This document shows, piece after piece, positions 4,911 through 18,999 of a stretch of DNA of 64,000 bases (within the stretch, counting starts at the first letter, position 1; each line of letters starts with the position of its first letter). The notes below the pieces were generated by a model that made no database searches, was not told the origin of the DNA, and saw nothing but the letters and a program-made list of their open reading frames with translations. A program made the position numbers and the translations under genes. Source of the DNA: Achromobacter insolitus (lineage in GTDB: Bacteria; Pseudomonadota; Gammaproteobacteria; Burkholderiales; Burkholderiaceae_B); contig NZ_NJIF01000010.1 in assembly GCF_002209555.1 (NCBI RefSeq), forward strand, positions 62,001 to 126,000, read 5' to 3'.

Positions 4911-5915
4911 ATGCAATCCATAGACATTACCTACCTGAATGGCCCCGACGTCCGCGCGCTGGCCCTGACCGACGCGGAAATCCTGGCGGCAGTGCAAAAC
5001 GCGCTCGACGCCCAGGGACGAGGCAAGACCGTCATCGAACCGCGCATGCACCTGGTGCCCGAGTCTTCCGCCAAAGGGCACTTCAATGTGCTGCGCGGCT
5101 ATATCGAGCCGCTGCACGTGGCCGGCGTGAAGGTGGTCAGCGACTTCGTCGACAACTACAAGGTCGGCCTGCCTTCGGAAATGGCCTTGCTCAATCTGTT
5201 CGATCCGGTCAATGGCAAGCCGCTGGCCGTGGTCGACGCCACCGCCATCACCGACATGCGTACCGGCGCGGTGACGGCGCTGGGCGCCAAGTATCTGGCG
5301 CGCAAGAACAGCAAGGTGCTGGGCCATGTCGGGTCGCGCGGGACTTCATACTGGAACGTGCGCCTGCTGGACAGCCTCTACGACTTCGACGAGATCCGCG
5401 TGCATTCGCGCCGCCCGGAAAGCCAGCAGGCCTTTGGCGAGCGCCTGTCGCGCGATCTGGGCAAACCGGTGAAGGTCGTCAACGATTGGGAGTCCTGCGT
5501 GCGGGGCGCCGACATCGTGGTCGAGGCCTCGCGCCTGCCCGAGCCCACGCCGCTGCTCAAGACCGAATGGATCAAGCCCGGCGCCCTCGTCATGCCCTAT
5601 GGCACCATGAGCGCCGTGGAACTGAGCCTGACCGACATCATGAGCAAGGTGGTGGTCGATGACTGGGGCCAATGCCGCAAAGGCTTGCCCTACGGCGCCT
5701 TGCGCGCCCACGTCGACAGCGACCGCATCACCGAGGAAAATCTTCACGCCGAACTGGGCCAGATCGTGGCCGGCCTGAGACCAGGCCGAGAGCGCGACGA
5801 CGAGACCATCCTGTTCTGGCACCGCGGCCTGTCCACCACCGACATCGCGCTGGGCCATGCCATGCTTGAAAAGGCCCGCGGAATGGGTCTGGGCCAGACC
5901 TTGAAATTCGCGTAG
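4911..5915 (+). CDS. Ornithine cyclodeaminase / mu-crystallin family protein
   Basis: NAD(P)-binding protein of 334 residues. This family includes ornithine and lysine cyclodeaminases, alanine dehydrogenases and ketimine reductases. Visible features are the substrate-side region with PRMHLVPE, DATAITDMRTGAVTALGAKYLA, then a Rossmann segment starting KVLGHVGSRGTSYWNVRLL. The second glycine of the usual GxGxxG reads as GSRGTS here, so the dinucleotide loop is slightly altered. AGGAG precedes the ATG. Together with the lyase it makes an operon of two amino-acid-type enzymes that typically release ammonia. The exact substrate cannot be decided from the sequence. Confidence 0.87.
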   Translation: MQSIDITYLNGPDVRALALTDAEILAAVQNALDAQGRGKTVIEPRMHLVPESSAKGHFNVLRGYIEPLHVAGVKVVSDFVDNYKVGLPSEMALLNLFDPVNGKPLAVVDATAITDMRTGAVTALGAKYLARKNSKVLGHVGSRGTSYWNVRLLDSLYDFDEIRVHSRRPESQQAFGERLSRDLGKPVKVVNDWESCVRGADIVVEASRLPEPTPLLKTEWIKPGALVMPYGTMSAVELSLTDIMSKVVVDDWGQCRKGLPYGALRAHVDSDRITEENLHAELGQIVAGLRPGRERDDETILFWHRGLSTTDIALGHAMLEKARGMGLGQTLKFA

Positions 5916-5925
5916 GCGCCGCGCC

Positions 5926-6744
5926 ATGGAGCTCATCACTTCGACCCGGATGTACGACGTGGCGCCGGGAGCGCGGGATGCCTGGCATGCGCTGCTGGAG
6001 ACTGCCCATGCGCGCGCCGGGCTGCGCGTGCGCTTCGTCGAGCACGGCTGGCCCACGCCCATCGGCGAGCTATGGGAACGCCCCGGCCTGTGCGGCGCCT
6101 TCATGTGCGGCTGGCCCTACATCGCGGCCCTGCAGGCGGGCCGGACCTTTGCCGCCGTGGCCGCGGTGGTGCCAGACTGGCCCGCCTATGAAAACCTGCC
6201 GCGCTACCGCAGCGAATTCCTGGTGCGCGCCGACTGCACATGGTCGTCGCTGGCCGATGCGGCCGGCAGCCGCTATGGCTGGATGGTGCTTGACTCGCAA
6301 TCGGGCTGGAACGCGCCGCGCGCGGCCCTGGCTGGCCTGGCGCCCGCCGGCGGTTCCCTGTTCGCGGCATCCAAGGGGCCCTACGGCAATCCGCGGGGCC
6401 TGCTTCGCGCCCTGGCCGAAGGCGAAATCGATCTGACCGCGGCCGACGGCTGGTACCTGGATCTGCTGCGCGAGCACGATCCGGGCGCGCTGGCTGGAGT
6501 GCGCACCCTGGCATACACGCCATGGACGCCCAATCCGCTGCTGGTCGCCGGACCCGATGTGGCCGAGGCCGCCGTGCGGGCCCTGTCGGAAGCGCTGGTG
6601 GCAATGCATGAAGATCCCGCTTGCGCGCCATTGCTGCGCGCCGCCCATGTAGCGCGTTTCACGCCTGCCAATCCGGCCTCTTATGCGGCCTTGAACGACA
6701 TGGCGCGCGCCGCGGAGGCGGCAGGCTATCCCGCGATACGCTGA
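5926..6744 (+). CDS. PhnD-like substrate-binding-domain protein without signal peptide
   Basis: Protein of 272 residues resembling the type-2 periplasmic-binding fold of PhnD/SsuA-like receptors. Recognisable segments are GAFMCGWPYIAAL near residues 60-72, RSEFLVRADC and a ligand-loop-like LDSQSGWNAPRAAL. Unlike true ABC receptors it begins MELITSTRMY with no hydrophobic leader, so it is predicted to be cytosolic or to be missing its leader. No ABC permease or ATPase is adjacent. It follows the cyclodeaminase-like gene by 10 bases and closes the operon. It could be a sensor or a pathway enzyme; its role is unknown. Confidence 0.7.
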   Translation: MELITSTRMYDVAPGARDAWHALLETAHARAGLRVRFVEHGWPTPIGELWERPGLCGAFMCGWPYIAALQAGRTFAAVAAVVPDWPAYENLPRYRSEFLVRADCTWSSLADAAGSRYGWMVLDSQSGWNAPRAALAGLAPAGGSLFAASKGPYGNPRGLLRALAEGEIDLTAADGWYLDLLREHDPGALAGVRTLAYTPWTPNPLLVAGPDVAEAAVRALSEALVAMHEDPACAPLLRAAHVARFTPANPASYAALNDMARAAEAAGYPAIR

Positions 6745-6936
6745 GAACGGGGCAGCCCCTCCTCTTCCCATAGGACGGACTGCCCCATTCTGCCTGTCGG
6801 CAACGCTTTAAAGAATTATTAATACCCCGTGCCGACAATGCGCTCCTGTGAAGACGGGTCTACCGGCCCGCTCGATCCACGCATAGCAATGAAAGTTGGC
6901 GCAAGTCCGTCTGGACCGCGCGCGGGAGATGCATAC

Positions 6937-7866
6937 ATGAAACGCCTGCATGGCATGGAATTGTTCGCCGAAGTGGCGAAGGCGCATAGCTTCAGCCGGG
7001 CTGCCGCCGCGCTCGGCATGCCCACCTCCACGGTGTCGCGGCAGGTGGCCGAGCTGGAGCGCTCGGTCGGCCTGCGCCTGCTCAGCCGCAACACGCGCCG
7101 GGTGGAGCTGACCGACGCGGGACGGCTGTACTTCGAGCGCTGCCGCCGCATCGTGGCCGAGGCGGAGATTGCCCACGAGGAACTGCGCGACCAGCTGGAA
7201 ATTCCCAGCGGCCCGCTGCACGTCCAACTGCCGGCCGCCTATGCCCTGGACGCGCTGATACCCGCGCTGGTGGCGTTCGGCGGCCGCTACCCGGAAATCC
7301 GCCTCCAGATGAGCGTGGCCGGACCGGAGTTCGCCGAGCACCCGCCCGAAATCGGCGACGTGTCGATCCGTCTGGGCGAACAGCCCGATTCCTCACTGGT
7401 GGCGCGCCGCCTGGGCGAGGTCCACGCCCACCTGTACGCCTCGCCCGCCTACCTGGCCGCCCGAGGCACGCCCGCCAGCCCCGCCGACCTGCAACACCAC
7501 GACTGCATCGGCCTGCGCACGGGAGGCGGCCAGCCCGCGCCCTGGCCGCTGCAACGCGGCCGCGACCAGTTGCTGGTGCCGGTGGAGCACCGCTACGGCG
7601 CCAACGACGCCAGCATGGCCAGGCAGCTCGCCGTGCTGGGCGCGGGCATTGCCGCGCTTGGCGGCGATGAAAGCGGCCGCCTGCGCTCGGGCGAACTGGC
7701 GCGCGTGCTGCCGGCGTGGAGCCTGGCGCCCGTCGAGGTTCACGCCGTGACCGAAACGCGTTTGCTGCCCGCGCGGACCCGACGGTTCATCGATTTCCTG
7801 GCCGACTATCTGGACAACCCGGCGCGCGCCCGGGCGCCCGATCTGCAGATCCGCCGCGCGGCCTGA
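6937..7866 (+). CDS. LysR-family transcriptional regulator
   Basis: Regulator of 309 residues with an N-terminal winged helix-turn-helix ([32 protein letters not shown], about 8-40) and a LysR effector domain (about 90-295). ATG 6937 was chosen over upstream in-frame starts because GGGAG lies eight bases before it and MKRLHGMELF is the usual LysR beginning. It is co-directional with the lyase operon and about 190 bases after it. Control of that operon is possible but not shown. Confidence 0.92.
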   Translation: MKRLHGMELFAEVAKAHSFSRAAAALGMPTSTVSRQVAELERSVGLRLLSRNTRRVELTDAGRLYFERCRRIVAEAEIAHEELRDQLEIPSGPLHVQLPAAYALDALIPALVAFGGRYPEIRLQMSVAGPEFAEHPPEIGDVSIRLGEQPDSSLVARRLGEVHAHLYASPAYLAARGTPASPADLQHHDCIGLRTGGGQPAPWPLQRGRDQLLVPVEHRYGANDASMARQLAVLGAGIAALGGDESGRLRSGELARVLPAWSLAPVEVHAVTETRLLPARTRRFIDFLADYLDNPARARAPDLQIRRAA

Positions 7867-7996
7867 CGCCCGTCACAATATTGCATCCCGAGACGATGCG
7901 GCCCCCTTTTTCCGGGCATGCCGCCGTTTCCAGCCGCCTCTTGCCCCTGACCCTGCCGTCCACCGTGTAAACTCCCCCCTTTTTGACTCTGGTGGT

Positions 7997-8806
7997 ATGT
8001 TGCAGGCCCCACAGCGCACAGGTTTAAGCGGCCCGACGCTCATTCGCTTGCTGACTCGCCTGACGGATGCCGACGTCCCGCAATCCAGGCAATCGCTTTC
8101 GGACCATCTGAGCCAGTGGCTTGGCTGGACGGATGCGATCGCGCTTTCGGCGGCGCTGAACACCAGCCCGCCGGTGATCGCCCCCGGCGCGCGCATGTTC
8201 AGCAGCGCCGAGGAACGCGAATGCGCCCGCGTGCGGACCACTCTGGCCGACGCCATCGCCAGCGACACCGCGGCGACGGCCGCCAAGCGGCCCGTGCCTG
8301 GACAAGCGCCCGCGCCCGCAAAGCAGCTGGCGGCGCTGGCCGAAGCCGACGCCGACTACGCGAATTTTCGCCAACGCTATCTATCGTTGCAGCACACGAT
8401 GGAAACGGCCGTGGGTAATCTGCGCAGCCGGCTGCGGGGCATGGTCGCGGCCAAGAATGGCGAAATGACGCGCCTGGCGGTGGTCGACGCCATCATGGAC
8501 CGCGCCCTGTTGCCCAAGGAACGCGCGCTGTTCGGCGCGATTCCGAGATTGCTCCAAGGCCATTTCGACCGCCTGCGCGAGGCCGAGGCCACTGCGCTGG
8601 CTGCGGCGCAAGCCGAAGCCGAGGCCCAGGCCGAATCGGAAGCCGCGCCCGATGGCGAGGCGGACGAAACGCCGGCGCCGACGGCTGTCACGCCAGGCGC
8701 ATGGCTGGATACGTTCCGCAATGACATGCGCAGCGTCCTGCTTGCCGAATTGGATGTTCGTTTACAACCGGTCGAAGGGCTGCTTGCCACCCTTCGCGCC
8801 AGCTAA
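7997..8806 (+). CDS. DUF3348-type protein, first gene of motor-like operon
   Basis: Protein of 269 residues, recognised as the DUF3348 type found beside DUF802 genes in Burkholderiales. It has no signal peptide or membrane helix. The middle is predominantly helical (YANFRQRYLSLQHTMETAVGNLRSRL), followed by a charged Ala/Glu-rich coiled segment (about 190-220) and a C-terminal helix WLDTFRNDMRSVLLAELDVRL. It sits 10 bases before the DUF802 gene. A role as cytosolic partner or assembly factor of the membrane complex is inferred from position alone; no enzymatic motif is visible. Confidence 0.78.
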   Translation: MLQAPQRTGLSGPTLIRLLTRLTDADVPQSRQSLSDHLSQWLGWTDAIALSAALNTSPPVIAPGARMFSSAEERECARVRTTLADAIASDTAATAAKRPVPGQAPAPAKQLAALAEADADYANFRQRYLSLQHTMETAVGNLRSRLRGMVAAKNGEMTRLAVVDAIMDRALLPKERALFGAIPRLLQGHFDRLREAEATALAAAQAEAEAQAESEAAPDGEADETPAPTAVTPGAWLDTFRNDMRSVLLAELDVRLQPVEGLLATLRAS

Positions 8807-8816
8807 CCGGGACACT

Positions 8817-11800
8817 ATGTCCAAATATCTGACTAATCTCGTTGTTTTCTTGGCGGGTCTGGCCGTCGTGGGCTGGATCGGCATGGGCTATGCGGGCAGC
8901 AACCCGCTGGCGCTGGCCGTAACCTTGCTGATTGCCGTCTGCTACCTGACGGGCGCGCTCGAATTGCTGCGCTATCAGCAGGCAACCTCTGCGCTGACGC
9001 GCGCCTTGTCGGACCTGACCGATGCGCCGGGCAACCTGGGATCCTGGCTGGACAAGCTGCCGCCTGCCCTGCGCAACGCGACGCGCCTGCGCATCGAAGG
9101 CGAGCGCGCCGGCCTGCCCGGCCCCGCCCTGACGCCGTATCTGGTCGGCCTGCTGGTGCTGCTGGGCATGCTGGGCACGTTCCTGGGCATGGTCGTGACG
9201 CTGCGCGGCACCGGTCTGGCACTGGAAAGCGCAACCGACCTCGCCGCCATACGCGCCTCGCTCGCCGCGCCGGTCAAGGGTCTGGGCTTCGCGTTCGGCA
9301 CCTCGATCGCCGGCGTGGCCAGCTCCGCGATGCTGGGCTTGCTGGCGGCGCTGTGCCGCCGCGAACGGGTGCGCGCGGCCCAACTGCTGGACAGCAAGGC
9401 CGCGACCACCCTGCGCGTGTACTCGCAGGGCTATCAGCGTGAAGAGTCCTTCAAGCTGCTGCAGCGCCAGGCCGAAGTGATGCAGCGCCAGGCCGAGTCC
9501 ATGCCCACCCTGGTCGAACAATTGCAAACCATGATGAACGGCATGGCGCAGCAGAACCAGGCCCTGAGCGACCGCCACATGGCCAGCCAGGATGCGTTCC
9601 AGAGCAAGGCCGAAGCGGCCTACTCGCGCCTGGCCGCCGTCATGGAGCAATCCATGAAGGAAACCGTGGCGCAGAGCGCGCGCTCGGCCGGCGCCGCGCT
9701 GCAACCGGTGGTTGAAGCGACGATGGCCGGGCTGTCGCGCGAAACCGCGTCCTTGCAGGACACGGTGGCCGAGGCCGTGCAGCGCCAACTGGAAGGCCTG
9801 ACGGCGAACCTGCAGGCCACCACCAGCAATGTCGCCGATATCTGGAACCAGGCTTTGGCCGGACAGCAACGCGCCAGCGAGGCAATGTCCCAGAACCTGC
9901 GCGCCTCGCTCGAGCAGTTTGCCCAAACCTTCGAACAGCGCTCGGCCGCCTTGCTGGACAGCGTTTCCTCCCGCCTGGAAGAGTCCTCCGGCAGCATGTC
10001 CCAAGCCTGGACCCAGGCGCTGTCGCGCCAGGAACAGGCCAGCGAAAAGCTGGCTGGCGACAATCTGCAGGCCTTGACGGCGGCGGCCGCCAGCTTCGAA
10101 CAGCACTCGGCCTCGCTGCTGCGCACCCTGAACCAATCGCATACCCTCCTGCAATCCGAACTGGCTTCGCGCGACCAGCAGCGCCTTGCCGCCTGGACCG
10201 AAACCCTGGGCGCCATGGGCGCCACGCTGCGCCAGGAGTGGGAACAGTCCGGCGCGCAGGCCGCCCAACGCCAGGAGGCCATCAGTGCCACGCTGGCGCA
10301 GGCCGTGCGCGACATCACCGCGCAGGCGGAAGTCCAGGCTCAGCTGCTGGAAGGCGTGTCGGCCCGCATGGAAGCGGCAGCCAACGGCGTCTCGCAACAA
10401 TGGGCCAGCGCCCTGGCCCGCCAGGAACAGGCCGGCGAAAAACTGGCCGACGACAATCGCCAGGCACTGGCCGCCGCAGCTGCCACCTTCGAGCAGCATT
10501 CCGCTGCCCTGCTGCAGACGCTGGACCAGTCGCACGCGCAATTGCAGGCCGCGCTGGCCTCGCGCGATCAGGAGCGCCTGGCCGCCTGGACCGGTACGCT
10601 GACCGCCATGGCCACGACGCTGGGCCAGCAATGGCAGCAGGCCGGCGCCGACACGGTGGCACGCCAACAAGCCGTCAGCGACACGCTGGCCCAGACCGCC
10701 CGCGACATCACTGCCCAGACCCAGGCCCAGGCCGGCTTGCTGGAAAACGTATCGGCCCGCCTGGAAGCGGCGGCCGGCAGTGTTACGCAGTCCTGGACCG
10801 AGGCGCAGACACGCCAGGAACACCTCAACGCCAAGCTGGCCGGCGACAACCAGCAGGCGCTGGAAACCGCCGCAGCGGCCTTCGAACAGCATGCCGCCAC
10901 CCTGCTGCAGACGCTGAACCAATCGCACGCCGAACTGCAGGCCGCGCTGGCTTCTCGCGACCAGGAACGCCTCACCGCCTGGACCGGCACGCTGACCGCC
11001 ATGGCCGCCAAGCTCGGCCAGGAATGGGAACAGGCCGGCACCCAGGCCGCCCTGCGCCAGCTGGAAGTCAACGACACACTGGCCCAGACCGCGCGCGACA
11101 TCACCGCCCAGACCAAGGCCCAGGCCGATCTGCTGGAAAACGCCTCGGCCCGCCTGGAAACGGCGGCCCACGGCGTCACCCAGGCCTGGACCGATGCGCA
11201 AGCGCGGCAGGAGCAGGCCAACGCCAAGCTGGCTGGCGATAATCAGCAAGCGCTGGAAGCGGCCGCCGCCGCGTTCGAACAGCACTCGGCGGCCTTGCTG
11301 CAAACGCTGGAGCAGTCCCACGCCGGGTTGCAGGACACCTTGGCCTCGCGCGACCAGGAACGCCTGTCCGCCTGGACCGGCACCCTGACCGCCATGGCCG
11401 CCAAGCTCGGCCAGGAGTGGGAACAGGCCGGCACGCAAGCCGCCCTGCGCCAGCTGGAAGTCAACGACACACTGGCCCAGACCGCGCGCGACATCACTGC
11501 CCAGACCCAGGCCCAGGCCGACCTGCTGGAAAGCGCCTCGGCGCGCCTCGAAACGGCGGCCAACGGCGTCACCCAGGCCTGGACCGAAGCGCAGGCACGC
11601 CAGGAACAGGTCAACGCCAAGCTGGCGGGCGACAACCAGCAGGCGCTGGAAGCCGCGGCCGCCGCCTTCGAACAGCATTCGGCCGCGCTGCTGCAGACGC
11701 TGGAACAGTCGCAAGCGGATCTGCAAACCGCGCTGGCGGCCAAGGACGAAGCGCGGCTGGACGCCTGGACCGGCAAGCTCGGCACGATCGCCGACACGCT

Positions 11801-12506
11801 GCGCACCGAATGGGAACACACCAGCGAATACACGGCCAACCAGCAGCAGCAGATCTGCGACACCCTGGCCGTGACCGCGCAGGACATCAGTGCCCAGGCC
11901 CAGGCGTCCGCCAACGACACCATCGCCGAAATCGGCCGCCTGGTGCAGGCGGCCTCGGAGGCGCCGCGCGCCGCCGCCGAGGTCATCGGCGAACTGCGGC
12001 AGAAACTCTCCGACAGCATGGAGCGCGACAACGACATGCTGGAAGAACGCAACCGCCTGCTGGAAACACTGGGCACCCTGCTGGACGCCGTAAACCATAC
12101 CGCCGCCGAACAGCGCACGGCGGTGGACGCGCTGGTGTCCTCGTCCGCGGATCTGCTGGACCGCGTCGGCACGCAGTTCACCGACCAGGTCCAGGCCGAA
12201 ACCGGCAGGCTGGCGGAAGTGGCCGCGCAGGTCGCGAGCGGCGCGGTCGAAGTGGCCAGCCTGGGCGAATCGTTCGGCGCCGCCGTGCAGCTCTTTGGCG
12301 AATCCAACGACAAGCTGGTCGCGCATCTGCAACGTATCGAAGCGGCGCTGGACAAGTCCATCGCGCGCGGTGACGAACAGCTCGCCTATTACGTGGCGCA
12401 GGCCCGCGAAGTCGTGGACCTGAGCATGGTGTCGCAGAAGCAGATCATCGAGAACCTGCAGCAACTGGCCAGCCAACGCGCCACGGCCGGAGCGGAAACG
12501 GCATGA
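8817..12506 (+). CDS. DUF802 protein: MotA/TolQ-like membrane domain with giant helical tail
   Basis: Protein of 1229 residues. Helices at about 4-24 and 28-50 are followed by two more: residues 104-129 with LLGMLGTFLGMVVTL, and 152-179 with PVKGLGFAFGTSIAGVASSAMLGLLAAL. The last pair matches the core of MotA/TolQ/ExbB ion-channel subunits. From about 190 to the end the chain is an Ala/Gln/Glu-rich helical tail with no further membrane segment. The tail contains five 131-residue tandem repeats starting at residues 404, 535, 666, 797 and 928. MotA-type core plus long cytosolic tail is the layout of ZorA in Zorya. The start at ATG 8817 (MSKYLTNLVV) is preferred to an upstream in-frame ATG lying inside the DUF3348 gene. 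The stop overlaps the next gene as ATGA. Confidence 0.88.
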   Translation: MSKYLTNLVVFLAGLAVVGWIGMGYAGSNPLALAVTLLIAVCYLTGALELLRYQQATSALTRALSDLTDAPGNLGSWLDKLPPALRNATRLRIEGERAGLPGPALTPYLVGLLVLLGMLGTFLGMVVTLRGTGLALESATDLAAIRASLAAPVKGLGFAFGTSIAGVASSAMLGLLAALCRRERVRAAQLLDSKAATTLRVYSQGYQREESFKLLQRQAEVMQRQAESMPTLVEQLQTMMNGMAQQNQALSDRHMASQDAFQSKAEAAYSRLAAVMEQSMKETVAQSARSAGAALQPVVEATMAGLSRETASLQDTVAEAVQRQLEGLTANLQATTSNVADIWNQALAGQQRASEAMSQNLRASLEQFAQTFEQRSAALLDSVSSRLEESSGSMSQAWTQALSRQEQASEKLAGDNLQALTAAAASFEQHSASLLRTLNQSHTLLQSELASRDQQRLAAWTETLGAMGATLRQEWEQSGAQAAQRQEAISATLAQAVRDITAQAEVQAQLLEGVSARMEAAANGVSQQWASALARQEQAGEKLADDNRQALAAAAATFEQHSAALLQTLDQSHAQLQAALASRDQERLAAWTGTLTAMATTLGQQWQQAGADTVARQQAVSDTLAQTARDITAQTQAQAGLLENVSARLEAAAGSVTQSWTEAQTRQEHLNAKLAGDNQQALETAAAAFEQHAATLLQTLNQSHAELQAALASRDQERLTAWTGTLTAMAAKLGQEWEQAGTQAALRQLEVNDTLAQTARDITAQTKAQADLLENASARLETAAHGVTQAWTDAQARQEQANAKLAGDNQQALEAAAAAFEQHSAALLQTLEQSHAGLQDTLASRDQERLSAWTGTLTAMAAKLGQEWEQAGTQAALRQLEVNDTLAQTARDITAQTQAQADLLESASARLETAANGVTQAWTEAQARQEQVNAKLAGDNQQALEAAAAAFEQHSAALLQTLEQSQADLQTALAAKDEARLDAWTGKLGTIADTLRTEWEHTSEYTANQQQQICDTLAVTAQDISAQAQASANDTIAEIGRLVQAASEAPRAAAEVIGELRQKLSDSMERDNDMLEERNRLLETLGTLLDAVNHTAAEQRTAVDALVSSSADLLDRVGTQFTDQVQAETGRLAEVAAQVASGAVEVASLGESFGAAVQLFGESNDKLVAHLQRIEAALDKSIARGDEQLAYYVAQAREVVDLSMVSQKQIIENLQQLASQRATAGAETA
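10026..11990 (+). repeat. Five 393-bp in-frame tandem repeats in the DUF802 tail
   Basis: Units start at 10026, 10419, 10812, 11205 and 11598, an exact 393-base spacing (131 codons). Each begins with RQE-type codons and carries FEQHSAALLQTL, RDITAQ and WTGTLTAMA-like segments. Units 3 and 4 are the most alike, while the fifth diverges in its second half. A weaker partial unit precedes 10026. The repeats probably arose by unequal recombination and set the length of the tail. Confidence 0.92.
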
Positions 12507-13153
12507 GCGAGGACATCGACGGCGGCGTGGAGCCGACAGTCCCGGCCTGGGCCGTCTTCGGCGACCTGATGTCGGTGCTGCTGGGCGCCTTCGTGCTGAT
12601 CCTGGTCAGCGTCGTCGCCGTGCAGCTGCAGCTATCCACCCAGCTCGAGGAAGAGGTCAAGCAGCGCCAGGAAGAAACCCAACGCCGCGAGACACTGGAA
12701 CAGGCGCTGGCGGGCCCCTTGGCCGCCGGCCGCGTGACCCTGATCGACGGCCGCATCGGCATCAGCGGCAGCGTGCTGTTCGCGCTGAACTCCGACCAGT
12801 TGCAGCCCGAAGGCCGGGAAGTCCTGAAGACCCTGATCGAGCCGCTGTCGGCCTATCTGAAGTCGCACAACGAAATCCTGATGGTCAGCGGCTACACCGA
12901 TGACCAGCAGGTGCGCGAAGGCAACCGCCGCTTCGCCGACAACTGGGACCTTTCGGCGCAACGCGCCCTGACCGTGACCCGCGCGCTGATCGACGAGGGC
13001 GTCCCGTCGTCCGCGGTGTTTGCCGCGGCCTTCGGTTCCGAGCAGCCGGTGGCCTCGAACAATGACGAGGAAGGCCGCGCCAAGAACCGCCGGGTGGAAA
13101 TCGCCCCGATCCCCAAGCCCGCCAGCGACGCCGGGACATCGCATGGCCAGTGA
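12503..13153 (+). CDS. MotB/ZorB-like OmpA-domain protein
   Basis: Protein of 216 residues with one N-terminal membrane helix (about 17-38). At its start it carries the motif AVFGDLMSVLLGAFVLIL, with Asp21 where MotB-type stators have their proton-binding aspartate (ADFMTAMMAFF). A coiled segment (45-70) leads to an OmpA-like peptidoglycan-binding domain (about 90-205) with GYTDDQQV and NWDLSAQRALTV. These match the family's ligand Asp and the NxxLSxxRA signature. There is no cleavable signal, so the protein should be anchored in the inner membrane. The ATGA overlap with the DUF802 gene implies coupled synthesis of the two channel partners. Confidence 0.92.
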   Translation: MSEDIDGGVEPTVPAWAVFGDLMSVLLGAFVLILVSVVAVQLQLSTQLEEEVKQRQEETQRRETLEQALAGPLAAGRVTLIDGRIGISGSVLFALNSDQLQPEGREVLKTLIEPLSAYLKSHNEILMVSGYTDDQQVREGNRRFADNWDLSAQRALTVTRALIDEGVPSSAVFAAAFGSEQPVASNNDEEGRAKNRRVEIAPIPKPASDAGTSHGQ

Positions 13154-13790
13154 CGGCACCCGCGGCGAGCTCGTCGGCGCCCGAGCCATGCTGGACGCCT
13201 GGCGCGAAGCTGGCGCGGACCGCGTCGCGCCCGTCCGCTTCCAGTTCATGGACGCCCTGGAGCGCCGTGCCGCGGCGCACGGCGGCGAAGCCCGCAGGCT
13301 GCTGGACGGCAAGCTGGCGGCGCTGATCCAGGCCTATGAGTCCGAACTGGATAGCGCCCGGGACCCAGACTCGACGCCGAACCGGCCTGCCGCCGCGACG
13401 CCAGAACCCGGCCCGCTGGCCGCGCTGACCGCCTACATGGCCGATCCCGGAGCTGATGCGCGCGGGACCACAAACCTGCGCGCCTCCTACCCCGAACTGG
13501 AGTCGCTCGAGTACTTCCGCAGCGTCTGGTCGCGGGTCAGCGCCGATCGCCAGGTCCGGCAGTCGCAGGAACAGGTGCACAAGAACGCCGGCCCGCTCAA
13601 CTCCAATCAGCTGGTGCACCGCGCGCTGTCCCTGATGCGCGAGGTGTCGCCAGGCTATCTGCAGCAGTTCCTGTCCTATACCGATGCGCTGATGTGGCTG
13701 GAGCAGGTGCACGCGGCTCTCGCACCCCCTCCCAGGGAGGCCGCCCCCCGCGCGGGCGCCAAGAAAACGGCGCGCGGCAAAGGGCGCTAA
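13143..13790 (+). CDS. DUF2894-type protein, last gene of motor-like operon
   Basis: Protein of 215 residues recognised as the DUF2894 type. It is soluble, with no signal or membrane helix. It has an N-terminal helical part (RGELVGARAMLDAWREAGAD), a variable Pro/Ala-rich middle near 80-100, a conserved-looking segment around LESLEYFRSVWSRVSADRQVRQ and a Lys/Arg-rich C-terminus (GAKKTARGKGR). The start overlaps the OmpA-domain gene by 11 bases, which fixes it as the fourth member of the operon. The basic tail could touch nucleic acid or membrane, but no function is known to me. Confidence 0.78.
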   Translation: MASDGTRGELVGARAMLDAWREAGADRVAPVRFQFMDALERRAAAHGGEARRLLDGKLAALIQAYESELDSARDPDSTPNRPAAATPEPGPLAALTAYMADPGADARGTTNLRASYPELESLEYFRSVWSRVSADRQVRQSQEQVHKNAGPLNSNQLVHRALSLMREVSPGYLQQFLSYTDALMWLEQVHAALAPPPREAAPRAGAKKTARGKGR

Positions 13791-13858
13791 CGCGGGTCGC
13801 CACCGCCTCGCGGCCCGCTCGATTTGCGCCTGCCCGGCCATCGGCAGTAAGATACGTT

Positions 13859-13879
13859 CCATATACAAACCATATATGG
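13859..13879. promoter_or_regulatory. Palindromic CCATATA repeats before ParD-like gene
   Basis: CCATATA at 13859-13865 is followed by the perfect 10-base palindrome CCATATATGG at 13870-13879, ending 12 bases before the ParD-like start. Closely spaced palindromes just upstream of an antitoxin gene are typical autoregulatory operators, and the sequence is also AT-rich enough to be part of a promoter. Confidence 0.42.
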
Positions 13880-13891
13880 ATCATTCACTCC

Positions 13892-14137
13892 ATGGGCATC
13901 GTCAAGATTTCCGAGCAGATGCATGAGAACCTTCGCGTCGCCAGCGGCGCGCTCAGCCGCTCCATCAACTCTCAGGCCGAACACTGGATGCGCATCGGCA
14001 TGCTGTCCGAGCTCTATCCCGAACTGCGCCACGCCGATATCTGCCAATTGCTGATCCGCATCGAACAGGCAGAAGGCTTTGCCATCGCCTCGCTGTCCCA
14101 AGGGCTACCGCAATCCGCCCAGCAGGAGGCCGCATAA
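13892..14137 (+). CDS. ParD-like antitoxin-family protein
   Basis: Small protein of 81 residues resembling the ParD-like antitoxin family. The N-terminus MGIVKISEQMHENLRVASGALSRSINSQAEHW has the beta-strand plus helix-helix pattern of a ribbon-helix-helix DNA-binding domain. The C-terminal 40 residues are a separate helix pair that could bind a partner. The stop codon TAA is immediately followed by the ATG of the aminopeptidase gene. No ParE-type toxin is present. The neighbouring aminopeptidase takes the place where a toxin gene would be, and a palindrome sits upstream. The start follows family length; the ribosome site is weak. Confidence 0.77.
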   Translation: MGIVKISEQMHENLRVASGALSRSINSQAEHWMRIGMLSELYPELRHADICQLLIRIEQAEGFAIASLSQGLPQSAQQEAA

Positions 14138-14929
14138 ATGGCAAAGAAGGTTTCCATCAAATCCGCCGCCGACATCGAAATGGCCCGCAAGGCCGGCGCC
14201 ATGGCGGCGGAAGTGCTGCACATGATTGCCGAGCATGTCCGTCCGGGCGTCACCACCGATGAGCTGGACCGCATTTGCCACGACTACATCGTCAACGTGC
14301 AAAAGGCCATTCCCGCCAACGTCGGCTACCACGGCTTTCCCAAGACCATCTGCGCCTCGGCCAACCACGTGATCTGTCACGGCATCCCGTCGGCCAAGGT
14401 GCTGAAAAACGGCGACATCCTCAATATCGACGTCGCGGTCATCAAGGACGGCTGGTTCGGCGACACCAGCCGCATGTACTACGTCGGCCAGCCCAGCCCG
14501 CTGGCGCGGCGCCTGGTCAACACCACTTATGAAGCCATGCGCGCGGGCATCATGGCGGTCAAGCCGGGCGCCACGCTGGGCGACGTGGGCCATGCCATCC
14601 AGACGGTGGCCCACCGCGAGCACTTCAGCATCGTGCGCGAGTACTGCGGCCACGGCATTGGCCAGATCTACCACGACGATCCGCAAGTGCTGCACTACGG
14701 CCGTCCCGGAGAAGGCCTCGTGCTGCAACCCGGCATGATGTTCACCATCGAGCCGATGATCAACGCCGGCAAGCCCCAGACCAAGCAGTTGCCCGACGGC
14801 TGGACCGTGGTCACCAAGGACCGCTCGCTGTCGGCGCAATGGGAACACATGGTGGTCGTGACCGAGACAGGCTACGAGGTCCTGACGCCCTGGCCGGACG
14901 GCTTCGGCGACTATCCTCCCATTCCCTGA
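14138..14929 (+). CDS. map: Type I methionine aminopeptidase
   Basis: Removes the initiator methionine from nascent proteins. The 263 residues match the family length. All catalytic and metal-binding residues are visible: His81 (CHGIP), Asp98 (NIDVAV), Asp109 (FGDTS), His172 (CGHGIG), Glu205 (FTIEPM) and Glu236 (QWEHMV). AGGAGG lies eight bases before the ATG, inside the ParD-like gene, so both are co-translated. Housekeeping map usually lies beside rpsB, so this is probably a second copy. That cannot be checked within the window. Confidence 0.95.
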   Translation: MAKKVSIKSAADIEMARKAGAMAAEVLHMIAEHVRPGVTTDELDRICHDYIVNVQKAIPANVGYHGFPKTICASANHVICHGIPSAKVLKNGDILNIDVAVIKDGWFGDTSRMYYVGQPSPLARRLVNTTYEAMRAGIMAVKPGATLGDVGHAIQTVAHREHFSIVREYCGHGIGQIYHDDPQVLHYGRPGEGLVLQPGMMFTIEPMINAGKPQTKQLPDGWTVVTKDRSLSAQWEHMVVVTETGYEVLTPWPDGFGDYPPIP

Positions 14930-14986
14930 TCCCGTGGCGTGACGCCCCACTCAGCCTTGCCCGTGGCAAGGAACGGAGTGCGGACA

Positions 14987-15018
14987 GGCAAGGGCACGAT
15001 CATGATCGTGCCCTTGCC
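14987..15018 (+). terminator. Perfect 32-base palindrome after map, terminator-like
   Basis: GGCAAGGGCACGATCA is followed at once by its exact reverse complement, giving a very stable hairpin 58 bases after the map stop. The trailing sequence GTTTCC has only a weak T-run, so termination may be modest or bidirectional. It separates map from the MFS gene. Confidence 0.65.
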
Positions 15019-15038
15019 GTTTCCGCCATACGCGCTCC

Positions 15039-16259
15039 ATGTCCGCCCTGCCCTCCGCATTCCGCCGCCTCGCCGCCTCTAACCTGGCCGCGCAATTCTC
15101 CGAACAGATGGCGCTGGCGGCCGCTCCCCTGGTGGCGGTACTGGCGCTAGGCGCCAGCGCCGCTGAGACGGGCTATCTGCAAACCGCCCAAACCCTGCCG
15201 TTCCTGCTGCTGTCCCTGCCCGCCGGCGTGCTGGCGGACCGGATATCGCGGCGCACGTTGATGACCGCCGCCGAATGCGTGCGCGCCGCCAGCCTGCTGG
15301 GCTTGCTGGCGTTGCTGGCCACGGGCGGGCTCAGCCTGGGCTGGCTGGCGGCGCTGGGATTTCTTGGCGCGGTCGGCACGGTCGCCTACAACGTCGCGGC
15401 CCCCGCGCTGGTGCCGCGGCTGGTCGCGCCCGCCGAACTCGCCAGCGCCAACCGCTGGCTCGAACTGGCGCGCAGCACCGCCTTCTCCGCCGGCCCGGCG
15501 GCCGGCGGGGCGCTGGTCGGCTGGATGGGCGCGCCGTCGGCCTACGCGCTGGCCACCGTGCTGTCGCTGCTGGCGGCGGGGCTGCTGGCGGGACTGCGCC
15601 ACGACACGCCGGGACCGGCGCAGCGCCGGCACCTGCTGGAGGAACTGCGCGAAGGCGCGGCCTTCGTCCTCACGCACCCGCTGCTGCGCCCGGTACTGGT
15701 GACCGCCGTGTTCTTCAACACGGCCTGGTTCGTGTTGCAGGCGATCTACGTGGCCTACGCGATCGAACGGCTGGGCCTGTCGGCCGCGGCCGTCGGCGTC
15801 ACGCTGGGCGTATACGGCGGCGGCATGGTGGCGGGCGCCCTGCTGGCGCCCTGGCTGGCCCAGCGCCTGAGTTTTGGCGGCATGATCGCCGTCGGCCCGC
15901 TGGCAGCCTTGATCGCAAGCGGCATCCTGTTGTCCACCCTGGCGTATCCGTCCGGCGCCTGGGCGGCGGCGGGCTTCTTCCTGTTTGGCGCCGGCCCTAT
16001 CCTTTGGACCATCACCACCACCACGCTGCGCCAGGCGATCACGCCCAACGTCCTGCTGGGGCGCGTGTCCGCCGTGATCCTGACCGCCACCTTCGGCGCG
16101 CGGCCCGTGGGCGCGCTGATCGGCGCCACGCTTGCCGCCCGGGTCGGCGTCGAGGCCTGCCTGTGGGTATCCACCGCCGGCTTTGCCGTACAGTTCGTGG
16201 TGCTGTATACCTCGCCGGTGCTGCGGTTGCGCAGCCAGCCCGAAGCCGGCGCCTGCTGA
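15039..16259 (+). CDS. MFS transporter (EntS/DHA3-like)
   Basis: Inner-membrane major facilitator of 406 residues with about 12 hydrophobic helices. The cytosolic loop after helix 2 reads GVLADRISRRTLM, the MFS motif A. Helix 7 begins after a loop VLVTAVFFNTAWFVLQAIYV. The arrangement resembles the DHA3/EntS-type exporters. There is no adjacent siderophore or drug gene to indicate the substrate. The ATG follows the palindromic terminator by 20 bases without a strong ribosome site. Likely function is efflux of a small molecule. Confidence 0.85.
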   Translation: MSALPSAFRRLAASNLAAQFSEQMALAAAPLVAVLALGASAAETGYLQTAQTLPFLLLSLPAGVLADRISRRTLMTAAECVRAASLLGLLALLATGGLSLGWLAALGFLGAVGTVAYNVAAPALVPRLVAPAELASANRWLELARSTAFSAGPAAGGALVGWMGAPSAYALATVLSLLAAGLLAGLRHDTPGPAQRRHLLEELREGAAFVLTHPLLRPVLVTAVFFNTAWFVLQAIYVAYAIERLGLSAAAVGVTLGVYGGGMVAGALLAPWLAQRLSFGGMIAVGPLAALIASGILLSTLAYPSGAWAAAGFFLFGAGPILWTITTTTLRQAITPNVLLGRVSAVILTATFGARPVGALIGATLAARVGVEACLWVSTAGFAVQFVVLYTSPVLRLRSQPEAGAC

Positions 16260-16353
16260 ACGCTGTTGCGCACGGAAAAACGAAAATCTGTATCTGTCGG
16301 CGGCAGCGGCGGGCCGCTAGACTGCACCGGTCAGTCAACACGGTGCCGGCACG

Positions 16354-16977
16354 ATGCTGAAAATCCTGGGTAAAGCCTCATCCATCAACGTGCGCAAGGT
16401 GCTCTGGACCTGCGCCGAACTAGGCCTGCCTTTTGAACGCGAAGACTGGGGTTCCGGCTTCCAGTCCACCGACGATCCCGCATTCCTCGCCTTGAACCCG
16501 AACGCCATGGTGCCCGTCATCCAGGACGGCGATTTTGTGCTTTGGGAGTCCAACAGCATCATCCGCTATCTGGCTGCGCAATACGGCGGCCAGCACCTGC
16601 ACCCCGCCGAGCCCCGCCTGCGCGCCCGCGTCGACCAGTGGATGGATTGGCAAGCGACCGACCTGAACCGCTCCTGGAGCTACGCCTTCATGGCCCTCGC
16701 GCGCCTGTCCCCCGCGCACCGCGACGGCGACGCGTTGGCGGCATCCTGCCGCGACTGGACGCACACGATGGAAATACTGGACCGGCGCCTGGAGCAGGCC
16801 GGCGGCCACGTCGCCGGCCCCGCGTTCTCGCTGGCCGATATCCCGGTGGGCCTGTCGGTCAATCGATGGTTCCACACCCCATTCGACAAGCCCCGGCTGC
16901 CGGCTGTGGCCGCCTACTACGACCGGCTCGCCGAACGCGAAGGCTACCGGCTGTACGGCCGCAACGGCACGGCCTGA
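16354..16977 (+). CDS. Glutathione S-transferase family protein
   Basis: Cytosolic protein of 207 residues. The N-terminal thioredoxin-like domain (about 1-78) has [20 protein letters not shown], then the cis-Pro in [10 protein letters not shown] and the glutathione gamma-glutamyl site [12 protein letters not shown] helical C-terminal domain follows (about 85-200) with [14 protein letters not shown]. The Ser-Ser-Asn start of helix 1 fits beta/theta-type bacterial GSTs. It stands alone between the MFS gene and sodC, so the physiological electrophile is unknown. Confidence 0.91.
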
Positions 16978-17005
16978 CGCGGCACGGCCTGACGCAGTCT
17001 GCCTG

Positions 17006-17530
17006 CTACTTCACCACGCCGCAAACCAGACGGCCGCCCCCGCCGCCCAGGGGTGCGGGCGTATCGCTGTAGTTGTCGCCGCCCACGTGCACCATCAGCG
17101 CATGACCCTTCACGTCGGCCAGCTTCAGATGCGGCGCCACCACCGCCTTCTTGGCCGAGCCGTCCGCGGCAACCACGATGAACGGCAGATCGCCCTGATG
17201 GCCATCGGTGGCCATCGGCCCCTTGTGCGCCTTGGTGCCCTTGGGATCCAGGTGCCCGCCCGCAGCGCCGCCCGGCGCCATCTGGTTGTTCACCATGCCC
17301 GGCCCGCAGGAACCCTTTTCATGCACATGGAAACCATGCTCGCCCGGTGGCAGGCCCTTCAGGTTCGGCGTGAACTGCAGTCCGCCCTTGGTGTCCTTGA
17401 GGGAGATCGTGCCAGCGCTCTTGCCCACGCCGTCCACGCTCAGGAACGACATCGACACATTTTCCGCCAGCGCCGCGCCAGACGCGCCAGCCAACGCAAG
17501 CGCCGTGACCAGCATCGAGATTTTCTTCAT
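17006..17530 (-). CDS. sodC: Periplasmic Cu/Zn superoxide dismutase
   Basis: Dismutates superoxide in the periplasm. The 174 residues begin with a clear signal peptide (MKKISMLVTALALAGASGAALA). The mature chain carries the copper-site segment GEHGFHVHEKGSCG (His68 and His70, Cys74), the zinc-region histidines in GGHLDPKGTKAH and near GPMATDGHQGDLP, the late copper ligand in HALMVHVGGDNYSD and the closing Cys of GGRLVCGVVK. The start is set at ATG 17530, where GGAGG stands upstream and the signal peptide begins; an in-frame upstream extension is unlikely. Confidence 0.94.
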   Translation of the reverse strand: MKKISMLVTALALAGASGAALAENVSMSFLSVDGVGKSAGTISLKDTKGGLQFTPNLKGLPPGEHGFHVHEKGSCGPGMVNNQMAPGGAAGGHLDPKGTKAHKGPMATDGHQGDLPFIVVAADGSAKKAVVAPHLKLADVKGHALMVHVGGDNYSDTPAPLGGGGGRLVCGVVK

Positions 17531-17679
17531 GGAGTGCCTCCAAGATACGCGCCCGCGAGCCGCGGACGCCCGGTGGTGCATGACCGGCCCGTTGCCGCCC
17601 ACGCCGAAAAAAACAATAGCATTCGCCTCCCGCGGTCCGCCAGCAATCTTCGTTCCTGATACAAACGCCACCCCGGGCA

Positions 17680-18999
17680 TCACCCCCGCATCAGCAACAC
17701 CACCGCATGCAAGCCCACCCCTATCAACCCGCCCACCAACGTCCCGTTGAACCGGATGTACTGCAAATCCCGCCCCACGCTCAGTTCCAGCTCGTCGACC
17801 AGATGCCGTTCATCCCAATTCTTCACCGTGCGGGAAATATGCTCCGTGACCCCGCTGCGCAACCTTCCGGTCAGGCGCCGCGCCCCGCCCAGCACATGGT
17901 TGTTGATCGCTTCCCGCAATCCGGGGTCTTCGCCCAGCTTGCGCCCCAAGGCCAGCAAGGCGTTTTCGAGATGCCGCGCCAGCGCCGAATCCTCGGCCGA
18001 CAGATCACGCCGCAGCGCCGCGTGAATGTCATCCCATAGACCCTGCACGTACTCTTGCACCTTCGGATGATCGATCGCCCGCTGCTTCAGCGCCTCCACC
18101 TGCGCCGACAAGGCCGGATCATCCTTCAGCCGCCGGATGTAGTCCTGCACCCAGGCTTCGTAGTCCCGCCGCACCGGATGCCCGGGCTCGGACAGCACCT
18201 CGCGCAGTTCCTCCACCAATGCCCGCGCCAGCCGGTCCGCCAGATTGTCCGCGATGCCGTCCACCGACTTGACCACGTCCACCGCCGCAATGATGCGCGG
18301 CCATTCCTTCTTCGCGAACTTCACCAGCAGACTCGACGCCCGCGCCTTCACGTCCTCGTCACCCAGGTAGCCACCCAGCCGCTCCAGCGCGGCATCCAGC
18401 AGCTCCTGATGCCGCCCGTCACGGGTCAGCAGGCCCAGCACCTCGCCCGCGGTATCGGCCGCGTCCCAGCGCCGCAGATTCTTCACGACGAATTCCTGGA
18501 TCACGCCGCGCACCGCCCGGTCATCCAATAGATCCAGGGTCTGGAGCGCCACATTGCGCGCGCCCTCGCTCAGGGCCCGCGCCTGACGCGGACGCGCCAG
18601 CCAGCGGGAAAGGCGCGCCGCCGGATCGAACACCCGCAGCTTCTCCATCAGCGTGTCCGGATCCAGGAAATGATCGCGCACGAAGACCGCCAGGTTGTCT
18701 CCAATGCGGTCCTTGTTGCTGGGAATGATGGCAGTGTGCGGAATGGGCAGGCCCATCGGCCGGCGGAACAGCGCCACCACCGCGAACCAGTCGGCCAGCG
18801 CCCCGACCGTGGCCGCCTCGCAGAACGCCCGCACCCAAGCCCAGGCGCCCTGCCCGCCCATCACATGGCTGGTAATGAAGCCGCTTACCATCGCCACCAG
18901 CAGAGCCAGCGCGGCGATCTTCATGCGCCGCAGCTGTGCGCGGCGCGCATCGGAAGCCAGCTCGGAATGCGTGGCGGCGAAATGGGGCGTGTCTGTCAT
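17680..18999 (-). CDS. DUF445-family membrane-anchored protein
   Basis: Protein of 439 residues of the DUF445 (YjiN-like) type. It has a membrane helix at about 28-46 (IAALALLVAMVSGFITSHVM), then the family signature ATVGALADWFAVVALFRRPMGLPIPHTAII at about 63-92. A long charged helical middle follows, and the C-terminal helix GTLVGGLIGVGLHAVVLLM is hydrophobic. Membrane helices at both ends fit a membrane-tethered helical protein. GGAGAG precedes the ATG. Biochemical function is not known to me. Confidence 0.87.
   Translation of the reverse strand: MTDTPHFAATHSELASDARRAQLRRMKIAALALLVAMVSGFITSHVMGGQGAWAWVRAFCEAATVGALADWFAVVALFRRPMGLPIPHTAIIPSNKDRIGDNLAVFVRDHFLDPDTLMEKLRVFDPAARLSRWLARPRQARALSEGARNVALQTLDLLDDRAVRGVIQEFVVKNLRRWDAADTAGEVLGLLTRDGRHQELLDAALERLGGYLGDEDVKARASSLLVKFAKKEWPRIIAAVDVVKSVDGIADNLADRLARALVEELREVLSEPGHPVRRDYEAWVQDYIRRLKDDPALSAQVEALKQRAIDHPKVQEYVQGLWDDIHAALRRDLSAEDSALARHLENALLALGRKLGEDPGLREAINNHVLGGARRLTGRLRSGVTEHISRTVKNWDERHLVDELELSVGRDLQYIRFNGTLVGGLIGVGLHAVVLLMRG

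Follow-up and report, generated by a model that had tools for sequence, protein, structure and literature searches.

A probable Zorya type III anti-phage operon in the core genome of Achromobacter, with a ZorA tail of repeats close to whole helical turns

The window, a stretch of 64,000 nucleotides from Achromobacter insolitus, contains a four-gene operon that probably encodes an anti-phage system of Zorya type III and that belongs to the core genome of the genus. All four encoded proteins match the PADLOC profiles of Zorya type III with E-values of 6.3e-83 or better. This type was published in 2021 as a set of ZorA, ZorB, ZorF (DUF3348) and ZorG (DUF2894), and the system of Stenotrophomonas nitritireducens, when placed in E. 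coli, lowered plaquing for at least one tested phage (PMC8565338, covered here in part). The window copy shares the described features of the type: the DUF3348 gene lies directly upstream of zorAB and the DUF2894 gene overlaps zorB by 11 nucleotides, ZorA combines a MotA/TolQ-like core with a long tail, and ZorB a membrane helix and its aspartate with an OmpA-like domain. The profile matches together with the publication rule out that the operon type is undescribed, and the operon of the window is a further copy of a known defence family. Protection against phages by the Achromobacter copy is predicted by analogy with the protection conferred by the Stenotrophomonas relative in E. coli.

The four genes are co-directional (window 7997-13790, + strand; Table 1) and are separated, in order, by a 10-nucleotide gap, a 4-nucleotide overlap and the 11-nucleotide overlap already mentioned. 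Their Pfam families are DUF3348, DUF802 (six stretches in ZorA), OmpA and DUF2894. The same gene order is found in 135 of 140 related loci (L011-L150) and the remaining five are interrupted by the end of a contig, which argues against a chance arrangement. The names ZorF and ZorG, used here as in PMC8565338 with DUF3348 as ZorF, are swapped in PADLOC-DB 2.0, where DUF2894 is labelled ZorF3. On the opposite strand, an open frame of 1262 codons (window 8688-12476, - strand) covers nearly all of zorA and probably arises as a side effect of GC-rich coding.

Table 1. Features of the operon, in window coordinates.
Feature	Position	Strand	Evidence
DUF3348 protein (ZorF, Payne 2021; PADLOC-DB 2.0 label ZorG3), 269 aa	7997..8806	+	PADLOC 9.4e-149; Pfam PF11828 2.9e-89
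ZorA type III (DUF802), MotA-like core and tail of about 1000 residues, 1229 aa	8817..12506	+	PADLOC ZorA3 E=0; PDB 8vvn_C 1e-5, residues 109-244
Membrane segments of the MotA-like ZorA core, residues 98-180	9108..9356	+	Hydropathy; top conservation (0.89-0.95) in the 44-row ZorA alignment
Tandem array of the 393-bp / 131-residue ZorA tail unit, 4.6 copies	10000..11818	+	Tandem Repeats Finder, 78% matches; self-identity 0.49 at lag 131
Conserved distal tail tip of ZorA, residues 1001-1229 (approximate)	11817..12503	+	44-row alignment numbered on L058; window boundary by analogy
ZorB type III, one membrane helix and OmpA-like peptidoglycan-binding domain, 216 aa	12503..13153	+	PADLOC ZorB3 5.4e-119; OmpA residues 92-196
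ZorB Asp21 codon, expected ion-carrying aspartate	12563..12565	+	Invariant in 13/13 aligned ZorB; position like D24/D21 of types I/II
DUF2894 protein (ZorG, Payne 2021; PADLOC-DB 2.0 label ZorF3), 215 aa	13143..13790	+	PADLOC 6.3e-83; Pfam PF11445 5.1e-62

The sequences of ZorA and ZorB support a predicted ZorAB-type motor with a long tail. The hydropathy of ZorA reveals four hydrophobic segments (residues 8-26, 33-51, 98-127 and 158-180), which are followed by about 1000 residues of tail. Residues 108-287 match the ZorA2 profile (4.2e-10), and a similar region aligns with the ZorA chain of the solved Zorya I motor from Shewanella (8VVN; Table 1). Pfam searches at an E-value of 0.01 found no MotA/ExbB match in ZorA; the ZorA1 and ZorA2 profiles, which do match, are described as MotA/ExbB/TolQ. 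ZorB contains a single hydrophobic segment (residues 22-40), with Asp21 located just before it, and an OmpA domain recognised by Pfam (6.6e-20). Its matches in the PDB are ZorB chains (8QYD, 8VVN), MotB and PomB, and the OmpA domain resembles also that of Pal. Asp21 is conserved throughout an alignment of the window protein with 12 of 80 ZorB sequences (A2), at a position like that of the ion-carrying aspartates of ZorB in types I and II, where an assembly of five ZorA around two ZorB is established (PMC11890865, covered here in part). An earlier note on this DNA had described four packed genes with 10-base spacing or overlaps, the second encoding four membrane helices and a tail of about 1000 residues and the third one helix with a MotB-like aspartate and an OmpA domain, and had read them as a ZorAB-like motor whose core a profile comparison should relate to known families. 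The gene coordinates, the hydropathy and the domain matches agree with this description, and the relation to ZorA2, to the 8VVN ZorA chain and to the ZorB chains of 8QYD and 8VVN confirms that the motor was correctly recognised. The note had further regarded the DUF3348 and DUF2894 proteins as undescribed partners, which does not hold: they are the ZorF and ZorG of Zorya III, named in 2021 along with phage-defence data (PMC8565338).

Within Achromobacter the operon behaves as part of the core genome, and it is uncommon over the order. DUF3348 is found in 41 of 43 genomes of the genus and, as a single copy in each, in all 40 good genomes (completeness 90% or more, contamination 5% or less); the two genomes without it (G219, G224) are poor assemblies. 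In the same 40 genomes, Cas1 is present in two and HsdM in 15. Among the good genomes of two other genera of the family, DUF3348 was detected in 9 of 9 and in 10 of 13. At higher ranks its presence declines: carriers make up 65 of 200 genomes for the family, 23 of 399 for the order (ZorB3 at 1e-60) and 7 of 274 for the class, with the genome of the window included each time. The remark of the earlier note that the operon type seems conserved in Burkholderiales thus stands for the genus and fails for the order as a whole. The closest named relatives of the window ZorB, among the best 80 of 555, are 13 Achromobacter proteins with 86-95% identity. A high conservation of Zorya III was already shown for one species, Ralstonia solanacearum (PMC13064858, covered here in part; section 7 figure legend), and in the part of the literature that was covered we found no account of a genus-wide core status. 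Defence systems are rarely present in nearly all genomes of a genus, and such a distribution would equally suit a housekeeping function; the lack of defence genes among nine tested neighbours and of a recognised effector enzyme, described below, likewise speaks against defence.

The surroundings of the operon are shared to a large extent within the genus and are different in other genera. In the window, a gene of a ParD-like antitoxin family directly precedes a methionine aminopeptidase gene (13856-14926). Both genes also follow the operon in 30 of the 40 further loci of the genus, and two of the remaining ten end with the contig. The other eight (L099, L105, L107, L110, L111, L114, L125 and L128) lack these usual neighbours in an uncut stretch; since most of them group in the Zor tree, with L099 apart, more than one change of the flank may have occurred next to an operon that itself persisted. 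Linking loci by shared flanking genes unites those of the genus in one group, except for one cut-short locus, and the chaining also joins one locus from outside (L139). The nine neighbours that were tested contain no defence genes, the only matches being weak ones of CARF profiles to the helix-turn-helix part of a LysR gene, which rules out a typical defence island. ZorB is present in 27 records filed as plasmids, all of at least 366 kb and 7 of them typed as mobilizable, and no phage record matches DUF3348; together these results rule out phage or plasmid cargo as the main mode of existence.

We have compared trees of the four Zor genes, excluding the repeat tail, with trees of rpoB and rpoC. 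For 38 genomes of the genus (without G045 and G221, where genes are missing at contig ends, and G223, where rpoB is split over contigs), 13 of 35 splits are common to both trees, compared with at most 2 after shuffling of labels, and the distances correlate with a Mantel r of 0.77 (no more than 0.24 in any of 2000 shuffles). In the family set of 57 genomes, from which G045 and two genomes lacking rpoB (G021, G114) were left out, the correlation reaches 0.93, with at most 0.45 in shuffles. For the most part, the operon is thus inherited vertically within the genus. It is not free of recombination or transfer, because among Zor splits with a support of at least 80, 10 of 33 for the genus and 18 of 47 for the family contradict rpoBC splits that are equally supported. 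Purifying selection on all four genes is seen in their median dN/dS: DUF3348 has 0.19, the ZorA core 0.18, ZorB 0.10 and DUF2894 0.36. The DUF2894 gene evolves fastest (0.36, compared to 0.10-0.21 for the other three), and its protein could be the part that faces phages or could simply be under looser constraint.

The same evidence bears on a different reading, according to which the operon encodes a core motor of the envelope or cell surface, similar to TolQR/Pal, and the anti-phage effect in E. coli would be a side effect of overexpression. In favour of such a motor are the presence of DUF3348 in every good genome of the genus and of a related one (40 of 40 and 9 of 9), the largely vertical inheritance, the common neighbourhood in the genus, the purifying selection and the lack of a DUF3348 match in phage records. 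We nevertheless consider it unlikely. Carriers are few among the 399 genomes of the order (23) and the 274 of the class (7), and in another genus three of the 13 good genomes are without it, so the operon is dispensable; a Stenotrophomonas copy has been published to protect from phages (PMC8565338); and ZorA is closest to the ZorA of known Zorya systems, with no MotA/ExbB match in Pfam at 0.01. The assignment as a Zorya type III defence system kept in the core genome is the one that we prefer.

The partners of the motor are two small proteins. An AlphaFold2 model of the DUF3348 protein is all-helical and of good confidence (pLDDT 88, pTM 0.82), and that of the DUF2894 protein is helical with uncertain packing (pLDDT 77, pTM 0.43). 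Foldseek searches at an E-value of 0.001 retrieved no solved structure for either model, and in Pfam ZorF and ZorG match no family besides their own DUF. The underlying alignments combine the window proteins with 54 of 78 DUF3348 (A1) and 48 of 79 DUF2894 sequences (A3). Among the four operon proteins and nine neighbours (window 4911-18999), we found no profile match to ZorC or ZorD of type I, nor to ZorE, the HNH nickase of type II. The operon is thus devoid of a recognised nuclease or effector enzyme, and it is possible that an enzyme escaped recognition or that an effector is encoded elsewhere. During phage infection of B. cenocepacia, reported changes were confined to the first gene or the first two genes in both the Zorya I and the Zorya III operon (PMC12584637, covered here in part). 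A conventional mobile defence system, resembling Zorya types I/II and equipped with a nuclease effector, would account for the homology to the ZorAB of these types and for the occurrence of ZorB on 27 large replicons filed as plasmids. We regard this as improbable for an operon that is core, single-copy and largely vertically inherited in the genus, that has no match to ZorC, ZorD or ZorE in the nine tested neighbours, and whose ZorF and ZorG contain their own DUF only, which leaves room for an unrecognised nuclease.

Most of the ZorA tail in the window consists of tandem repeats (Table 1), a feature unmentioned in the earlier note and, in the parts covered, in the description of type III (PMC8565338). 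The 131-residue unit recurs in 38 of 40 complete ZorA proteins of the genus, the exceptions being G217, with a unit of 87 residues, and G213, with odd and doubtful repeats. The latter, a ZorA of Achromobacter pulmonis (G213, identical to L014 / L097), contains repeats of 400 and 145 bp that are 99-100% identical and not divisible by three, which possibly reflect a very recent event or a fault of the assembly. Complete ZorA proteins range from 555 to 1229 residues, and 14 of 137 ZorA rows have 697-698 residues with no repeat found; the 137 rows contain some records twice, owing to an overlap of named loci with the genome set, and a broken frame of 348 residues (L067) that was left unrepaired. 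Proteins of 784, 871, 958, 1045 and 1132 residues correspond to 697 plus one to five times 87, others are a few residues off, and such steps of 87 recur in Paraburkholderia, Caballeronia and Cupriavidus; further lineages have units of different lengths. In Achromobacter, lengths of 1098 and 1229 and of 1076 and 1207 differ by 131 residues, and 1098 and 1200 by 102. Within species the length was found to be constant in three P. caribensis, two P. largidicola, two C. metallidurans and two near-identical Caballeronia, and in two records labelled P. fungorum the lengths of 871 and 784 are one unit of 87 residues apart. Among repeats with units of at least 30 bp in 2.88 Mb of DNA, 153 of 195 rows fall in ZorA, in a set of loci that were chosen around ZorA and are in part duplicated. 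Across 44 aligned ZorA sequences, conservation is highest in the motor core, lowest in the middle of the tail (0.57-0.71) and intermediate in the last 200 residues (0.71-0.91), and the simplest picture is that of a motor, followed by a spacer of variable length and a conserved tip. A straight helix rises by 0.15 nm per residue, which as an estimate gives about 150 nm for a ZorA of 1229 residues and about 72 nm for the form with 697.

Most repeat units come close to whole turns of a helix. With 3.635 residues per turn, 21 of all 23 in-frame units deviate from an integer number of turns by no more than 0.14, the misfits being a unit of 10 residues (2.75 turns, 1.9 copies, two genes) and one of 103 (28.3 turns) from a single doubtful record. 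The survey covers periods of at least 30 bp and disregards any unit that is a multiple of a shorter one in its gene. In its first part it yielded 12 units of 11, 33, 51, 55, 62, 69, 76, 80, 87, 102, 131 and 149 residues, with a mean cosine of 0.926 at 3.635, a value reached by none of 20,000 jittered sets in which each unit was shifted by up to six residues and the best period chosen anew for each set. This count omits the 10-residue unit (30 bp, 1.9 copies; G202, L075) and, from G213 (L014), the 103-residue unit and the 400- and 145-bp periods, this being the record with near-identical and partly out-of-frame repeats and a possible assembly fault; with 10 and 103 restored, the 14 units have a mean cosine of 0.767, which was reached by 3 of 20,000 jittered sets. 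Loci on plasmids add a unit of 113 residues that fits whole turns. Out of 40 later loci, one ran off its contig (L259), leaving 39 usable ones, and two repeat earlier loci without a new unit (L231 and L249, equal to L070 and L028); several belong to genera that had already been sampled. They contribute eight units of 18, 22, 29, 40, 73, 94, 98 and 109 residues, all of which fit, with a mean cosine of 0.92 at the period fixed beforehand that was equalled by none of 200,000 jittered sets. The four short ones (18, 22, 29 and 40) all come from one genus, and for the four long ones alone the value was reached by 390 of 200,000 sets, or 101 of 200,000 when the unit of 113 was included. All 23 in-frame units, misfits included, have a mean cosine of 0.818, which no jittered set out of 20,000 attained.

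A hydrophobic periodicity of 3.65-3.67 was measured in the tail independently of the repeats; by comparison, a left-handed coiled coil has 3.5 residues per turn and a hendecad has 3.667. Among repeats outside ZorA, the 12 unit lengths that are in frame had a mean cosine of 0.215, which is a weak control since most of these units are short. The fit to whole turns is itself weak for 39 distinct tail lengths measured from anchor to anchor, which exclude the 14 of 137 rows without anchor motifs, as 1446 of 20,000 jittered sets reached it, perhaps because small deviations sum over long distances. For differences of anchor lengths up to 100 residues, the fit was reached by 3 of 20,000 sets, and it is clear only up to 100-200 residues. 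The unit lengths suggest that the ZorA tail is one continuous and nearly straight helical assembly, intermediate between a left-handed coiled coil and a hendecad, whose register must be kept. In the literature on Zorya, as far as it was covered, we found no report of tail repeats or of unit lengths near whole turns.

These features can be combined in a mechanism in which ZorA and ZorB would form an ion-driven motor of the inner membrane. Once a phage disturbs the wall, ZorB could grip the peptidoglycan, and the flow of ions would then turn the ring of ZorA together with its cytoplasmic tail, whose conserved tip might relay the signal to the small helical ZorF and ZorG. The tail would act as a continuous helical rod that changes its length by tandem duplication of blocks comprising nearly always whole turns, which would preserve the register from motor to tip. 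The rotation of ZorA, the contact of its tip with ZorF and ZorG and the roles of both proteins are inferred from this arrangement. Zorya III could accordingly be viewed as a resident, vertically inherited motor responding to wall damage, with the ZorA tail as a drive shaft of tunable length and locked register and with the non-enzymatic ZorF and ZorG coupling the tip to a host factor or an unlinked effector, an interpretation that we offer tentatively and hold to be rather doubtful as a whole. If true, whole-turn blocks would fix the angular position of the tip relative to the motor as the shaft reaches more or less far into the cell, and type III would not follow the model of nuclease recruitment that has been put forward for every Zorya type.

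For the repeats, we give an even chance to a neutral explanation, in which slippage lengthens the gene, units that do not comprise whole turns break the bundle and vanish, and length itself has no function. The spread of complete ZorA proteins from 555 to 1229 residues, including the 14 of 137 rows at 697-698 that lack a repeat, is in line with this explanation. Against it could be held that length is constant in the small within-species sets and that types I and II require their tail for defence (PMC11890865), neither of which shows that length matters. In type III, tail-length variants that occur naturally in whole-turn steps make reach and register of a drive shaft separable by experiment, and a system without a recognised nuclease tests the proposal that all Zorya types recruit one. 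The fixation of a defence system across a genus is also relevant to asking which of these systems count as core functions of the cell. New in this analysis, as far as the literature was covered, are the genus-wide core status and the modular tail with units close to whole turns; we judge the tail to be the more interesting of the two, as it makes length and register directly testable.

Compared with known systems, the operon is closest to Zorya type III (PMC8565338), with which it shares the four proteins, the gene neighbourhood and the domain content, the window copy being distinguished by a ZorA of 1229 residues with 4.6 copies of a 131-residue unit. With types I and II (PMC11890865; PDB 8VVN, 8VVI) it has in common a MotA-like ZorA core with a cytoplasmic tail and a MotB-like ZorB with a membrane aspartate and a peptidoglycan-binding domain, whereas ZorC/ZorD or ZorE were not found among the 13 proteins tested and two small helical partners are present instead. 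MotAB, PomAB, TolQR and ExbBD exhibit the same general motor architecture, and the OmpA domain of ZorB resembles MotB, PomB and Pal; the window ZorA differs in the lack of a MotA/ExbB match in Pfam at 0.01, in its very long tail and in the four-gene context. Finally, among the core defence systems (HCADS, PMC13064858), type III Zorya is likewise conserved, in that case in Ralstonia solanacearum, whereas the core status described here spans the species of a genus and was compared with rpoBC.
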